Assembly (NCBI GenBank): GCA_024195265.1
Contig: JAJLRJ010000002.1
Span: 3,146,283 to 3,210,282 of the forward strand
Reading direction: 5' to 3'
DNA length: 64,000 nt
Source: Dendrophyllia cribrosa
Taxonomy: Eukaryota > Cnidaria > Anthozoa > Scleractinia > Dendrophylliidae
Shown here one piece after another: positions 25,201 through 33,763 of this stretch (its first letter is position 1; the number at the start of each line of letters is the position of its first letter). The notes under the pieces were generated by a model. The model did not search any database, was not told the origin of the DNA, and saw only the letters and a list, made by a program, of their open reading frames with translations. Made by a program: the position numbers and the translations under genes.

Positions 25201-25310
25201 TCATTGGGTGGTCAAAGCTTTTTAAAACGCAAGTACCTTGCATTGCTAGGTGTATAATGTACAAATCATTGTTAGTGACAAAAACCAAGTGATCAATAAA
25301 TCAAGCGTAT
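22205..25310. other. Spacer right of START gene: repeats, no gene seen
   Basis: Contains the START 3' flank, a poly-C run at 22486-22519, a MITE at 22944-23376, a copy of the 580-740 repeat at ~23510-23690, AT-rich sequence, and a (TTG)n microsatellite near 25134-25160. The short frames show no domains or splice logic. Confidence 0.5.
22944..23376. mobile_element. MITE, ~430 bp, GGTTCAGACACC ends
   Basis: The left end (CCGGTTCAGACACCATACAC, then ACTTCACATGAGCTGAACC and TAATTCAA) is matched in inverse by the right end (TTGAATTAGGTTCATGTGAA with GTGTCTGAACTCGGCC). The arms are ~60 bp, about 80% alike. Confidence 0.7.
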
Positions 25311-26005
25311 TAGTCTAGTGGCCAAACCAGTATTTTTTTAAGTTGGCTGCACCCCATGGGTGGCAAGCTGTTCTTGGTATCATTTTAAAGCTTAGAGACT
25401 GCTGATCACGAATCTGCTTGTTAACACGTAGAAAAAGTGTCCAAAGGGCTTTGTAACCTGGCCTAAACAACCCATACTCCTTTGCGCCAAATTTCACTAA
25501 ACCGCGGTTTTTTCCATTCTAATTGTATTTTCACGGCAAAATGTTGTCAAAACCTAGCCATTTCTACGCTGTGAAGCCCTCTGCAAGTATTTCATCTTTA
25601 AAGAGCAGCACAATTGCTCAATTTTAGAGAGTTTAGTAAATTTTATGCTAACTAGAGTGGAGGGAGCCGAAAGTGCAAAAACAAATTTACATTTTCGCGA
25701 CATTAACACTTCAAAACCGAAACATGTCACTCAGATACACTTGTTTCATACTTTTAAATCCTTATCTGCACAGAAAGTGACAAATTACGAAAGGAAAGAG
25801 ACGATAAGGCCATTTTGGGCCAAACCGGAAGTGAAAACATCTATTTCCGGTTTGATTATTCTACAGTAATTATGTATGCTATAGGGTTATTTCCAACTAA
25901 GACGACGAATTTCGTGCATAAAATAACTGAAAAAGATTTTTGGGTTAAAAATACATGTAGGCCCTCTAAACTAAAAGCAGTACATTCAATGAAAAAGTGA
26001 TTAAT
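25311..26005 (+). repeat. Left terminal inverted repeat of element A
   Basis: Pairs with 32405-33098 in inverted orientation. Shared landmarks run inward in the same order: the block around GTTGGCTGCACCCCATGGG, then TGTTAACA with GTAGA, then GGAGGGAGCCGAAAGTGC, then GGCCAAACCGGAAGTG and GTATGCTATAGGG. The paired CCGGAAGTG and TTCCGGTTT near 25835-25858 also form a small hairpin within the arm. Confidence 0.88.
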
Positions 26006-26325
26006 GACGTCATATATTTTAAATGATAAATAGTTCAGACAAAGATTCGTTTTTTTTTTCACTCTTGGACTACCATGCTACCGTCCGGTTGCTAGTAAAT
26101 CTACTGGTTGAAAACCTTTTTTTAAATACTACCATGCTACCATCTAGCACTGCTAACTGTGACCGGTTGCTCGCAATAACGTGTTACTGTTTTAAAATAT
26201 TCACCAAGGGGAACAAACACTCCTTACAAATACATTATAGCTAGTTCTTTGGGTCTTATGTTTGTTGCTTAAAATCATATGTTCATATTTGTTACTGAAA
26301 ATCTGCAGTTTTACTCAGGATGATC

Positions 26326-29300
26326 TCACTGTTCTTCGTCCTCTTCGCTGTTCTCAGCTCCTTCTTCCCACACGTAGTTGTGAGGATTCTCACATTTATC
26401 GCCGCACTGGCATGATTCTGCGCAGGGTAGACCATTTCTCTTGCACGTGCAGTGATCTGTTGTGCAGTTTGCAATGCAGCCACACAGTACAAGCTCCAGT
26501 AATGCCTCAGGAGCAGGCGGCAATGACATCCAGTCGATCTCAACATGGCCATCCACGATGAGCCATCCCTGGCCCTCAGGCGATGGGACTTCGGGATTTG
26601 CATCCAGTGCACGCCGCCAGACAGCAGCTTGGTAGTTTGCTCGCATAGTGTGATTTCGTAGTGCATCTTGGCATGGTGGAAGACTCTGCGACTGTCCTTG
26701 CTTTGCACAAAACGTGACATACCGACATTCATTAACGTCCGAAAGATTAGACCTCCCATACATCTTGCACACAAACCCCTCACATTCAGAAAAAGGAACT
26801 CTCTCCATGTCAAATGAACAGCCAAGGAGCGCCATAGCCTCACTTGCCACCGGGTAAGTCTTACAAAGATTCAAAGGAGCCTTCTTCCCTTTACCAGAAA
26901 ACGCACTTGTTGAGTCGCAGCCGGTGAAGGCGTGCAGACCAGGCAGGGCCTTACATGCTTGGGGCCCAGCAGCATCTGCTATTGCAGAAATCTCAAGATA
27001 GATGATCCTTGTTTTTTCTTTCTTCATAATAAGAAGCCGTGCTCGTATAACACTGCAAAAATGGCAAGCCAGGATTGCCACATCTGTGTCGGGAGACTTG
27101 ATTATGACGGTGTTCTCGCCATTTTCAGATGCATGCTTTGAATGGAGAAGCAGCTTTGTATCAGCTTCTTCGTGATTGCTGTTTAGCTCAGGGATCTCAC
27201 AAACAACCTTGCCATGATCGTTGACAGACAAACGAAAGCACTTGCTTTCAACAGCAAAATAGATGTTGCGATTTCCAATTCGATCTGCGTAGTTGTCACT
27301 CGACCACTGCTGGAGGAGAAACCTCGTTAGTGTTCTCTTGTTCTCCCCACTGCTTAAGAACTTCTTCCATTGCTTGGGGCACTTTTGGCCACCTCCGGTT
27401 ATTTTGATCTTGACGACTCCTTTACTTCCACGCTTTGCTCTCTCGGGGTTCTTAATGGAAATATCTGGATATGTGTCTGTGACAAAATCAACCCTTCTTG
27501 CCAAGGTTTTCTGAGGAACAACTGAATGAAAAACAGCAGTCGCCAACTCTTCAAATGTGTCTGGAATTTCTTTCATCGCTTGAAGTACAGCCATGCCATC
27601 AACAATCAATGCTGCGGTGGGTGGAACATCCTCAGCTGGTTCGACTCCCTTAACCAGTGACTCCAGTAACTTGGACTTCACAGTCTTGCAGAGAGACCCG
27701 TCAGCTGCAGCCAGAGACCACGGAAGAGGACCCAGAGAATACTTGAAGACTTCTCTTAGATCCATATCTCTTGTCTGGGCGACAACGAGAAGACGAGCGA
27801 AGAGATCCCTATCGGCTTTAAGCATGACTTCTCTTCCACCTATCTTAACAGATGAAAGGTACACAGAATCAAAGGTGGCCAGCTTCAGTTTCGGTATCGG
27901 ATCGTACAAGGAAACTTCAGTAGTCATCAACCTCTTCCTGATGAAAGTTGTCATTGCTTCTTCACCCTTATCATAGGCCATTAAGAGATCTTCTTCCACC
28001 TTTTTGGGGGCCGTCATTCCTGATGCGAGGTGGCAGATTTCATCAGTGTCAGATGGCGAAAACGGATTGCCCCAGGTGCTCAGAGTTGATTGGACCTTCT
28101 TAACATCTTTTTCATCGAGTGACATCCTCCCTTTTCCTCTCTCCTTTATTATGCCCTCGCCATTTGTCACGGACATTCCAGCCATCTCACGGCATGCTTG
28201 GGTGATCGCAGCACGCTCATGTGAAGTCAGTATCCATCGCTGCACGGCTCCTTTGTTCTGGCTAAAGCCGATAATTCCGCCTTTGGATTTTGTATCTCTG
28301 TTAATGGTCTGCTCAATGGTCTGGTCGACGGCCACTTGACTGAATGCATTGCAGGAGCGTTGAACCACAAAGTCACCAGCTTGGAAGGCTTCATAGGCAG
28401 TGGGGTGTCGGTCCTTCAGTGACATCATGTCACACCAGTAGACCGGTAGGTACCTTGAGTAGTTGGTGCGATCATAGGCAAACATCCAAGGGAGCATGTC
28501 ACGAATACAAGAGAGATACAAGTTCCAATCACCTTCTCTTGTTGACCGTATGAAGCATAGAAGAAGACTGGCCATTTCTATGTATGATTGCCAGTATAAA
28601 CTCATCTTACTGCTTGACCGTTTATGGAATTCTTGATACTTCACTCGGAGCTCTTCAAGTTCAGGAGTTTCATACAATTCCTGGATTGTGGAAGACGTTA
28701 GCTCTTTTTGCACTTTGGTTGTGGCTGACACCACGGCCTGCCTAAGCAAATGCACTTCTGGATCATCTTTTGCTGCACTAATGAACGTCTGCCAGCTGAG
28801 TCGTAACAAGGCCTCTAGAACCACCTGAAAACAAGAATAACCACAAACTACGGTAAATGTAGGTAGTTGAGGAGTGTTCTGAGGACGAAGCCCTTAACCT
28901 TAACTACCAACAGTGCTAAGGGAAAAGACAAATAATAACAATAGCAGAAGAAAAAAACATTAGATCAATAACAACGATAATGCTAATGATGACAATAATA
29001 ACAATGATGATCATTAAAAAATTAATAACCTTATGAGTGCGCAGTGCCCTATTGTAGTGCTTCCCCTCAAGTACACCGTTTAGTGAGCCACTGCCCACCA
29101 GTCTCGACTCGAGCAGAAGGTCCCTCAGTCCACCATCCCTGAAGCGCTTTCCCATAACTGAAAGAAATACACACGTAATATGGAAGCCTCCCATTCGTAG
29201 CGCAACGCTCTTAAACTCCTCCTTCTGCTTCCAGACTACCTCAAGGGCCTTTGCATATATTGCTTGATCTAAAACCACAACAGTGTCATCGAGGCCTAGC

Positions 29301-31880
29301 TGAGTTGCCATTTCAACGGACTTCTTCAGTAAGGTATACACTGTGGACAGCTCTGTCGGTGAAGCATCTATAAGTTGGCAATAGCCAACGATACTCTTGG
29401 ATGGAATTTGCTGGTTGCTTGCCACTGCATTGAACCCGCTCCAACCCGGTACAGTTTGCGGAGAGACTGAGACCACTTCCGATGGATAAGGAAGTCGTGA
29501 TAAGAACCATGCAAAGTCCTTGGACAGTGCCTTGCAGCGATCGTCCGTTCGTCTAGCAAGTACAAGATCTACAGGATATCCACCAGGGCTACATCTTTTT
29601 CCGGCGTTGTACTCATGAATCTGTTGATTCAAATACGTTAGGACTTTAATTATTATCAAAAACGTAAGTATACATTTGCAGTGAACTTCGCTAAGTTTTT
29701 TTATAACATAACTAAAGTAAAGCGCGCGCTCTGATTGGTCAATTAAGCATGACTATGACGAAAGCGAGTGCGCGCTCAGGCCGATACGAGTCAATTAAAA
29801 TATGAATACAATTCTGATTTGACAGCGGAGTTTTAATGCATTTGGGACCAAAAGTTGTTAAAAACGTACAAAATTCTTTTTAGTTTTACAACCTACCTGG
29901 ACACTTAAAACAACAGGATTGAGCGAAAATGTTTTCTCAGTAAAATGTCATTGAAAAGAATAAGTTGTTTTCGCCATACAGAAGGCGGGCACACTATCAC
30001 ATACACGTCTCAGCACTCAGATGAAAACAAAACCTATTTCGCTGTTTAGATTAATATGTTATAAAAGAAATGATAAACGCCACAGCTGTGGAACCATTCA
30101 GTCTGATTGAGTTATGGATGCACTTTGATGGCTGCTAAGTACTCAAAAAGTTATCGCTTCGAGCAACTCTTACGCTTCTTTCGTACTTAGCAATATCCCG
30201 CGTGCATCCACAACTCGATGGTTGCATGCTGCACGTTTGCTATTTCTTAATGTTTTCACCCATACCTGGCTTGGAGCTGCATGAAAAGTGCGCCTTCGGA
30301 CACCCCTTTTTTTGTGTCACTACGGGTGGTAGATCGCATCCTGCGACTTGCCTTTGTACCACGATGTCATTAGTACAGTGAGTTGTGCCTCTTCCCGATA
30401 ATGTTTCTTCAAGTAGATCAATGTTATCCCAGCAAAATGTGCTAAACACATTGGGACAGACAACCTTAGGCAAAATTACACCTTGCTCTTGTGATTCTAA
30501 GTGGTTCTCGGCGAGACTTGTCTCGATCTCAAGAACCTGATCGTACGACACTCCATGACCATACCTATTCAGCAAAGTGATCACTTCTTTGGAACCAGTG
30601 AGATTTTTTACTGCAAGAGGCAAGGCAACATGCTTCGGTGTTTTCTGTCTTCCATTCGATACATTGTATAAGAGATCTTGAGCAAGGGAGAGAACAAGCC
30701 GCCGACAGTGCTCATCTACATCCACCTTTTCTTTATTCTCTTCTTCTGGCTCACCACTCTCGCTTAGGATCCATGCAAGTAAGTTGTAAACAACATTTGG
30801 AACTATGATCTTCTCTTCCTTGATGATATTAGAATATGGTGGCCACGGCATGTACGATTCCTGACTTAACAGGGCAGCGCGCACGGTCTTTGCAGCATGA
30901 AATACATGGTTCTTTAGAGATACATCCTCTGGCTCTGTGACAAACATTTCATTTTCAATGCTACAGTTAAGACCACACTCAATGATCTGGCCCTTAGACA
31001 CCTCTTCACAATAGACAATTTCAGCCTCAGATCGATTTCTTGGGTGCCAAAAGCTTATTCTTCCCGGATAAGACTTTTGCAATCTGACCTTCAGCTTTTC
31101 AGAACGATACAGAGGGTTCTGTACGCCATGTAGAGATAAAAGTTCCACGTATCTTTGTCGTAGGTCAGACATACGCAGAACTTCCAAACGCCCAAATAGC
31201 CTCGTCTCCATCTCAGATTTGAGTACCTGAAAAGCATCATCATATCGAGATTCGAGCTTGCCTTCTTGATTTTTCTTGATGACTTCTATTTGCTTCGTGT
31301 TTGTGTACGTCCGATAACAAGTCCTATGATAGCATAACTCGATGGCAATAGGATCTTGATCACTTAGAGCCACAATAAGCCTTTGGTCATCTCGAATTTG
31401 TGCCGCCTCGAGAAGAGTTTTTCCAGCTTGCATTGTTTCACATGGGGTCAGCTTCTCTTTTCTTCGTCTGTCTTTGGAATCCGTCTTTTCTGTTTGACAT
31501 ATCGCACATTTCTTCATGTCTGCTGCCTGTAGTGAAGATCTGGTCAGGAGGGCATTAGCCTGCAGCTCAGAAGATAGAGTGCTGTTCTCCTCTGACAAGG
31601 GAATCTCCTCTATCTTCCTCTTTTTCGCGGCACGCTCAAGAAGGTTCTTGGCTGTGTACGTTTGGTAACATTTTCGGTGATACACACCAAATGGACCGCT
31701 TTCCCATTTTCCTTCCATAATTGTTGCTATTTCATCCTTTCTAAGGTCAGCGGCTTCCTTGAAGGTGTTCCAGCTGACATCAGAAAAGTTTGTTAGTGGA
31801 CCTTGCACTCCAGGTTTGTGGCACAAACAGTTTGAGGCAGTTGTAGATGGCCTCGGATTTAGCGAGAACGCCATAATCAC
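26326..31880 (-). CDS. Element A protein: Cys/His modules, FEN/XPG-like nuclease and CXC domain (3 exons, ~1575 aa)
   Basis: Reading leftward, exons 31880-30266, 29643-29030 and 28824-26326 join at GT-AG borders in phases 1 and 0 and total exactly 1576 codons. Exon 1 has two similar Cys/His modules (CLCHKPG with YHRKCYQTYT, and CAICQTEKT with YHRTCYRTYT) that are probably zinc-binding. Exon 3 carries the order expected of a FEN/XPG PIN-like nuclease: ALIVDGMAVL near exon residue 409, a lysine/arginine segment (IKNPERAKRG), EEADTKLLLH near 552, SPDTDVAIL near 577 and GCDSTSAFSGKGK near 635. Upstream is a conserved-looking DQTIEQTINRDTKSKGGIIG block. The C-terminus (CGCIANCTTDHCTCKRNGLP and following cysteines) is a tesmin/TSO1-type CXC DNA-binding domain. 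No DDE triad is apparent. No stops or frameshifts interrupt it, so it may be recently active. Confidence 0.8.
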
Positions 31881-32404
31881 TAACCTAGCAACTGTAAATT
31901 AACAGAGGCTCTCTTCAATTTAAATCCAATGATTGTATTTAACCTAATTACAATGTATCAAGTTTATAATGATAAAGCAAAGAATCAAAGAAAACTCTTT
32001 TTTATTAACTATATGACACGGCGGTATCGAAAAAATTGTGCACCGTTCTCAATATTAATCTTTGTTTGTGTCAAAATTTGCTAGTTCAATTGAAGAACTA
32101 TATTTCAGTCAATTTATGAGATTTATACAAGCAAAATATGTATACTTACAGCCATTCTAGACATCCATCGTGTATTAACTCGTGGGGGCAGCCATCTTGA
32201 ATGACAACCGCTGGTCATGACAGCAGGCCCATGAAATAAGCACAGGCATCCCAACGTAATCAGTTTTTATTGGCCCTCAAAATCTAATAACAGAGGTGTT
32301 CGTATACAGGCTAAAATATTAATTTTTTTCTTCATGTCATCTAGTTTGTGTTTCTTACCGATAATCTTTTTCCAATAATTTGCAGTCTTGCATGGCAACT
32401 TGTC

Positions 32405-33098
32405 ATAGTTAATCACATTTTTCATCGAATGTACCAATAAAGAGTGCCCACTTTTAACCCAACGAGCAATTTCAGTTATTTTATACACGAAATGCATCGT
32501 CTTAGTTGTAAATAGCCCTATAGCATACATAGTTATTGCAGAATGATCAAACCGGAAGTAATTTTTTCACTTCCGGTTTGGCCCAAAATGGCCTTTTTGT
32601 CTCTTTCTGTTCGTAATTCGTCAGTTTCTGTGTAGATAATGATTTTCAAATATGAAACAAGTATATCTGAGTGAAACGGTTCAGTTTTGAAGTGTTAATG
32701 TCGCGAAAATGTAAATGTGTTTTTGCACTTTCGGCTCCCTCCACTCTAATTAGCATAAAATTTACTAAAATGTATAAAATTGAGCAATTTTACTGCTTTT
32801 TAAAGTTAAAATACTTGCAGAGGGCTAACAGCGTAGAACTGGCTAGGTTTTGACAAGGTTTTTCGGTCAAAATGCAATTAAAATGGAAAAAAGGGAAGTT
32901 TAGAGAAATTTGGCGCAAAGGAGTATGGGTTGTTTAGGCCAGGTTACAAAGTCGTTTGGACACTTTTTCTACGTGTTAACAAGTAGATTCGTGATCAGCA
33001 GGCTCTAAGCTTTAAAATGATACCAAGAACAGCTTGCCACCCATGGGGTGCAGCCAACTCGAAAAATAAAGCCCTTTTTGGATTTGACCACCAGACTA
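32405..33098 (-). repeat. Right terminal inverted repeat of element A
   Basis: Inverted partner of 25311-26005. Its outer end at 33098 is followed by TAT, matching the bases left of 25311. The arm lies just upstream of the transposon gene's start, so it may carry the promoter for that gene. Confidence 0.88.
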
Positions 33099-33116
33099 TA
33101 TATGTACTGTCTACGA

Positions 33117-33763
33117 CACCGCGGCAGAACGTTTGCGCATGCGTAAACTTCAAGCACTTCCGGTCCGTTAAACTACCAGTCAACATCGATGCGAACAGCA
33201 TAAAACAACACTTCTGCATGAACCAACAGACCTAGATTTTCTAGACGCAATGATGAAAGGACCAAAACCGAAGAAAATTATGGTACGTACACGATCGGTT
33301 CTTGCATGAATACATTTCGAGATGGGGTGAAGACTTGTTTTTTGTGAAAAAATGCCATGCAAAAATTATTTGTTCATATTTCGTTGTTGGTGCAAACACC
33401 AAACCCCTTGGTGCAAACGCTTGAAACTTGAACGATGAAAAAACTTTTCAACGAAACAAACTTTTTCTCTACCTTTGTTTTATAACTCTTACTTTTTGTT
33501 TTCAAACTTCGCGGTACGGGAGTTTTATGTTGTTTATGTTGTAGTTCATTTTTTATTTCAGGTAATTTTTGTTTTTCCTTTGTTTCAAATTCATCAGCAT
33601 ATATTACCATACCCAAAAACAATGGAAAAATAAAAATTACCTGAGATAAAAAAATTAACTACAACATTTACATGGGATTACAGTACGTCACCGGAAATGC
33701 GTAATTCACCGGATGCTCAGTTTTCTACTCATGCGCAGTGCGTTCTGCCGCGGTGCCACTGTC
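33117..33763. repeat. Inverted-repeat unit with CACCGCGGCAGAACG ends
   Basis: ACACCGCGGCAGAACGTTTG at 33117 is mirrored by CGTTCTGCCGCGGTGCC near 33745. Both ends carry GCGCA-rich sequence followed by ATCCGG- or TTCCGG-type motifs. A smaller foldback (33535-33672, same family as 3061-3202) is nested inside. It may be a MITE or a promoter caught between inverted copies. Confidence 0.5.
33125..33292 (+). promoter_or_regulatory. Possible promoter and first exon
   Basis: TTTGCGCATGCGTAAAC resembles an NRF-1 site and CACTTCCGGTCC an ETS site, a pairing common in housekeeping promoters. About 80 bases downstream ATGATGAAAGGACCAAAACC opens a frame (MMKGPKPKKIM) that ends in a strong GTACGT donor at 33284. 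No matching second exon was found before element B, so a gene here is unproven. Confidence 0.25.

Follow-up and report, generated by a model that had tools for sequence, protein, structure and literature searches.

An AcademX-like transposon of the coral Dendrophyllia cribrosa, with a FEN1/XPG-like nuclease and a predicted DDE transposase core in one protein

We describe a 7,788-bp transposon of the stony coral Dendrophyllia cribrosa, found in a stretch of 64,000 nucleotides (contig JAJLRJ010000002.1, positions 3,146,283 to 3,210,282, of assembly GCA_024195265.1) that we refer to as the window. This animal DNA transposon has been active recently and, when set beside Academ by described features and not by reference sequences, is most likely of the AcademX kind of that superfamily. 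Its one protein is, on the models discussed below, a hidden DDE core together with a FEN1/XPG-like nuclease. We think it quite probable that the element is an autonomous cut-and-paste transposon, most likely AcademX, in which Cys/His repeats, a DDE core, a FEN/XPG 5' nuclease and a CXC domain are combined in this single protein. The original prediction, made from the letters of the window, held that a nuclease was all the element encoded and might itself drive movement. This is partly supported. The first part is wrong, as the predicted DDE core is in the same protein, and the nuclease is probably not the sole mover. The DQTIEQT block, suggested there as a possible catalytic site, contains the predicted catalytic Glu (DQTIEQTINR).

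The evidence for the DDE core comes from fold predictions, which are models of homologues and not of the window protein itself. In these models the strands have the RNase H-like order, with D, D and E conserved and in place, and the fold of the catalytic core is that of the P superfamily. The predicted core is spread over three exons and has a large helical insertion preceding the Glu. In the VIA-align fold search the first 32 of the 50 rows are exclusively DDE transposases or RAG1. The site following strand beta-5 is GxFH, with G in 97% and H in 95% of 165 aligned rows, and an excerpt of PMC9587614 gives C/DxxH between the second D and the E as a signature of hAT, P, MuDR, Kolobok and Dada.

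The Pfam DUF6589 (PF20231) profile covers a stretch that begins ahead of the second Asp and reaches the Glu (residues 184-471 of P0036, E 1.9e-4; P0182, E 8.7e-6). It scores under the gathering score in our scans of the window exons and relatives, yet PF20231.4 is listed by the database for some of these proteins, for example P0045. The family is annotated in Pfam as of unknown function and a literature search for the term DUF6589 gave no match. Its other members, which we take to include fungal proteins, may be transposases as well.

An alternative is that transposition is catalysed by the FEN/XPG-like nuclease, in an element that has no DDE enzyme. The nuclease fold and acidic residues are indeed well conserved, Pfam scans of the window exons and relatives gave no DDE family above threshold, and Foldseek by itself, run with the transposase model against the PDB, gave no DDE match at E <= 0.001. 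However, this has to be set against the RNase H-like order, the conserved D, D and E, and the DDE transposases and RAG1 that fill the head of the VIA-align list, and FEN-type enzymes hydrolyse DNA, none being known to join DNA strands. With a predicted DDE core in the same protein the nuclease alone is probably not the mover, and on the fold-search evidence we rejected this alternative, which we regard as extremely improbable. Other searches were also negative: the transposase model had no match to viral proteins by fold at E <= 0.001, profile A1 matched nothing among PDB sequences at E <= 1, and exon 3 alone had a single, unrelated match (E 0.56). A match of profile A3 to BBK32 (E 0.0099) was judged to look like chance.

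With regard to the nuclease, the VDG, EEADTKLLLH, SPDTDVAIL and GCDSTSAF motifs are present as originally claimed, and are in a domain for which the structural comparison proposed at the outset found, by way of a homologue model, matches to FEN1 and EXO1 structures. The acidic positions and a Lys/Arg pair spaced seven residues apart are conserved across the family alignment, and the predicted domain has a FEN/XPG fold with the conserved acidic set. We take the Asp residues of IVDGMAV and FVTDTYP to correspond to FEN1 D34 and D86, and the Lys and Arg of KNPERAKR to K93 and R100, with EEAD presumably at the position of E158/E160, DTD at that of D179/D181, and the Asp of TGCDSTS at that of D233. 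The family profile pairs the TGCDSTS motif with SGCDYLSSLRG of EXO1, with an E-value of 0.44. Identity to FEN1, EXO1 and XPG/Rad2 is 12-19% in the matched rows, and the window nuclease differs from these proteins in being fused to a transposase. A catalytically dead XPG-like domain, retained for DNA binding or structure, has also been considered, but conservation of the acidic positions and of the Lys/Arg pair makes this very unlikely.

The CXC domain of the original prediction is also borne out: its profile scores weakly on the window protein (E 2.2) but clearly on relatives, 9 of 14 being at E <= 1 with a best value of 2.5e-7, and the family profile matches LIN54 with E 0.0016. Nearer the N-terminus there are two Cys/His repeats that, judged by their sequence, may bind zinc. 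The positions of these and other features are given in Table 1.

Table 1. Features of the transposon and its gene (positions in the window; residues and domains as predicted)
Feature	Position	Strand	Remark
Whole transposon, 7,788 bp	25311..33098	.	both-end copies at 19 further genome places
Left target-site duplication copy, TAT	25308..25310	.
Right target-site duplication copy, TAT	33099..33101	.
Left terminal inverted repeat	25311..26004	+	outer end TAGTCTAGTGGCCAAA
Right terminal inverted repeat	32409..33098	-	outer end TAGTCTGGTGGTCAAA
Exon 1	30266..31874	-	ATG at 31874; end out of frame with exon 2 in window copy
Exon 2	29030..29620	-
Exon 3, through stop codon	26326..28824	-
Putative zinc-binding repeat 1, CLC ... 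YHRKCYQTYT	31653..31829	-	from sequence
Putative zinc-binding repeat 2, CAIC ... YHRTCYRTYT	31302..31508	-	from sequence
Predicted first catalytic Asp codon, WDNIDLLEETLSG	30426..30428	-	strand beta-1 of RNase H-like core, homologue models
Predicted second catalytic Asp codon, VLDQAIYAK	29267..29269	-	past strand beta-4, homologue models
Predicted catalytic Glu codon, DQTIEQTINR	28312..28314	-	closing helix of core, homologue models
FEN/XPG-like nuclease domain	26578..27681	-	limits from alignment to P0036 677-1043
XPG-type Asp, IVDGMAV	27598..27600	-
XPG-type Asp, FVTDTYP	27475..27477	-
KNPERAKR, Lys and Arg	27430..27453	-
EEAD	27160..27171	-
DTD	27082..27090	-
Asp of TGCDSTS	26914..26916	-
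CXC (Tesmin/TSO1-like) cysteine-rich domain	26386..26484	-	weak in window protein, clear in relatives

The ends of the element are well defined. Inverted repeats of about 695 bp and a TAT on each flank, both noted originally, are confirmed: the arms can be aligned (25334-26004 with 32409-33066) at 87.5% identity across 672 columns, and the outermost 16 bp at 25311 and at 33098 match TAGTCTRGTGGYCAAA exactly. Within one element the left and right arms have diverged by 10-12% while left arms are near-identical between copies, so conversion is not keeping the arms alike. Except for one 19-bp pair in the right arm, the arms have no internal repeats of at least 14 bp.

The host genome as searched comprised 627 Mb in 22 contigs. 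The left-arm query gave 40 scored matches among 51 candidates, of which half are left arms at about 100% (20, with that of the window among them) and half are right arms at 89-90% (also 20). In 19 of 20 stretches retrieved there is a both-ended copy, and 17 of these align to the window element unbroken at 99.55-99.95%; L015 and L023 have small internal deletions and align in two pieces at 99.07-99.59%. The substitution level between copies is low, with a mean of 0.20% and a maximum of 0.41% (20 copies, 190 pairs). The remaining stretch (L028, C22:6393793) has a right end alone, corresponding to element positions 6809-7788; it is one of two right-arm matches without a listed left arm, the other being C6:11394839 (C6:11394839-11395453).

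All 20 copies have a perfect target-site duplication, of 3 bp in 18 cases and of 4 bp in L019 (TAAA) and L027 (TATT). A 3-bp match between random pairs of flank positions is expected at a rate of 2.0%, and the duplications are thus not due to chance. In the case of L024 the target was repetitive DNA in which a B-box motif like that of tRNAs was spotted by eye, probably a SINE family. The joined flanks of L024 gave 40 scored matches among 979 candidates, at 88-92% and spanning the junction in every case, together with five short rows. Two such empty sites (L032 and L033) were aligned, TTCTAGGTAAT, and carry a single TAG, showing that the 3-bp duplication arose on insertion of L024. Further copies and 3-bp duplications, which the original prediction proposed looking for, are present in this genome, as are two empty sites of one insertion.

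The three-exon splicing of the gene is inferred from homologues and from the border sequences, both introns having GT/AG borders in every one of the 20 copies. Of these, 11 can be read without interruption over 1,564-1,566 codons, so the spliced gene of about 1575 codons first proposed is nearly right as a model, but the window copy, which had been called intact, is broken as assembled. The break comes from a homopolymer run that differs in length by a single base, and it puts exon 1 out of frame with exon 2; downstream of it another frame encodes the RRRTF.AP segment known from homologues. Moving the start of exon 2 upstream to restore the frame was considered and rejected, as homologues and sister copies support the borders and the frame shifts inside exon 1. 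L009 and L010 share the break point of the window copy, and in L010 the length of exon 3 is changed as well. A separate break is present in exon 1 of L015, L011, L016, L026 and L027 each have a single inner stop, and in L021 exon 3 is altered in length and stops early. Single-base codon changes among the 20 copies comprise 39 that are non-synonymous or give a stop (3,607 sites) and 19 that are synonymous (1,046 sites). Exon 3 (26326-28824) of the window copy is one codon shorter than in all 19 others.

We infer all of the catalytic roles, the DNA binding, the splicing and the order of steps in the following scheme. The zinc and CXC parts would bind the 670-bp inverted repeats, and the DDE core would generate 3' ends and join them to the target, with 3 bp, or sometimes 4 bp, between the points of joining. 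Processing of the non-transferred (5') strand would fall to the FEN-like domain, which would cut or trim it during excision or, following strand transfer, in the form of 5' flaps; we give second-strand cutting and flap removal much the same likelihood.

The first of these would resemble Tn7, where the work is divided between TnsB and TnsA: the DDE core would cut only the transferred strand and the FEN-like domain would make the second-strand cut. The covalent fusion in one protein and the conserved active-site set, including the Lys/Arg pair, are in keeping with this. An exact-match search of the genome for remnants in which 11 bp from both element ends stand within 0-30 bp of one another found none, which is weak evidence for such a cut and a weak argument against long footprints. 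However the DDE site is sufficient for cutting of both strands in the transposases of P element and hAT, and FEN-type enzymes prefer flaps and junctions to plain duplex, so we put this forward only tentatively. It is just as possible that the DDE core carries out transposition and that the FEN-like domain acts later, on 5' flaps (whether of element or flanking DNA), in gap repair or in copy gain, being helpful but dispensable for excision. The FEN1 and EXO1 structures matched by fold include, from their titles, complexes with 5' flap and 5' recessed-end DNA, and an excerpt of PMC10045372 describes AcademH as having a helicase in place of the AcademX nuclease, and longer duplications, which suggests that some Academ elements move with another helper. 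In contrast the nuclease frame is preserved even between families of this genome with no more than about 40% identity, suggesting that it is more than a bonus.

With regard to classification, Academ and AcademX were reportedly defined by Kapitonov and Jurka in 2010, Yuan and Wessler in 2011 and Kojima in 2020. The Academ nuclease is of XPG type, and the name Academ-1_NV presumably refers to Nematostella vectensis. The window element shares with AcademX the combination of DDE transposase and nuclease and the 3-4 bp duplications, and in this comparison by description no difference was found; its length, inverted repeats and animal host are, we assume, also AcademX-like. These features are in keeping with the suggestion that it may belong to or near Academ. 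Excerpts of PMC10045372 give duplications of 3 or 4 bp for AcademX and 9 or 10 bp for AcademH, a difference apparently related to encoding a nuclease or a helicase, and the window element, with 3-4 bp in 20 of 20 copies, differs from AcademH within the same superfamily. Scans of the window exons (E <= 10), of 14 relatives (E <= 1) and of 6 more (E <= 0.1) listed no family of helicases. Academ is among 17 superfamilies with DDE/D domains used in PMC10294476, and Academ-1_NV is listed in PMC9004415. It is unlikely that the element represents a superfamily of its own, whose likeness to Academ arose through convergent pairing of a DDE core with an XPG-type nuclease, since the duplication length and the enzyme pair are the same and there is the Academ-1_NV entry.

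The Drosophila P element transposase (6pe2, 6p5a) has the fold that is predicted for the core of our family, and the helical insertion before the Glu is common to P element, hAT, RAG1 and the predicted core. However P elements make 8-bp duplications and have no XPG-type nuclease, and the 3-4 bp duplication shows that our element is not a P element; there was no P element sequence match at E <= 10 in the PDB search. Hermes (hAT), RAG1 and Transib likewise differ in duplication length, 8 or 5 bp, and in having no FEN-like domain. On the predicted fold the protein would work like a P/hAT/RAG-type transposase, yet the element is not a P element.

The protein family is a large one. The exon 3 query matched 123 proteins among 7,997 scored and a 14-protein alignment matched 289 among 7,992, with 120 listed in each case; the two lists combined have 220 distinct proteins, all in one alignment. 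Hosts among the matches listed include sea urchins, a feather star, sea cucumbers, a starfish, a tunicate, lancelets, an acorn worm, bony fishes, octocorals, an anemone, a hydrozoan, a sponge, a marine snail and a sea spider. In viral contigs 39 stretches fitted a search pattern but none was a relative. Exon 3 has matches at 59 places in the host genome (54 of 1,088 candidates scored), the other families being 36-60% identical to it, and six stop-free matches are in open frames of 1,552-1,612 aa.

Two of these other families merit comment. A second Academ-like family (L029 1447-7556) is 6,110 bp long, with ends TAGTCCATCAGCT, a TGT duplication and a single 1,551-aa frame. A third (L030 1598-7427 and L031) has one open frame of 1,583-1,587 codons and a left end TAGTCC, the two copies agreeing at 98.8% over 733 bases and at 99.0% over 5,096; no right inverted repeat or duplication was visible in it. 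Elsewhere in the window there is an inverted repeat to the right of the element (33549-33653; 37-nt arms, 92% complementary, 31-nt spacer), and on the - strand at 48355-48412 a weak tRNA-like match (Rfam RF00005, 29.4 bits) for which ARAGORN made no call.

Academ is a known but little-studied kind of transposon, to which this element most likely belongs. We suggest, with some reserve, that the AcademX transposase is a P/hAT/RAG-type DDE recombinase fused to a complete FEN1-type nuclease, in which the DDE site would make and join the 3' ends while the FEN site would cut the second strand or remove 5' flaps, so shaping the 3-4 bp duplication. The tempting reading of a transposon moved by a flap nuclease is corrected, and in its place there is a model that can be put to use for a transposase on which little work has been done, with the predicted DDE triad placed and split over three exons, an overlap with DUF6589, and the FEN-type site retained. 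With 11 of 20 copies uninterrupted and a mean divergence of 0.2%, this is a good family for testing what the nuclease is for. If two sites do divide the work, this would make a eukaryotic transposase with two nucleases in a single chain, reached by a route unrelated to that of Tn7.
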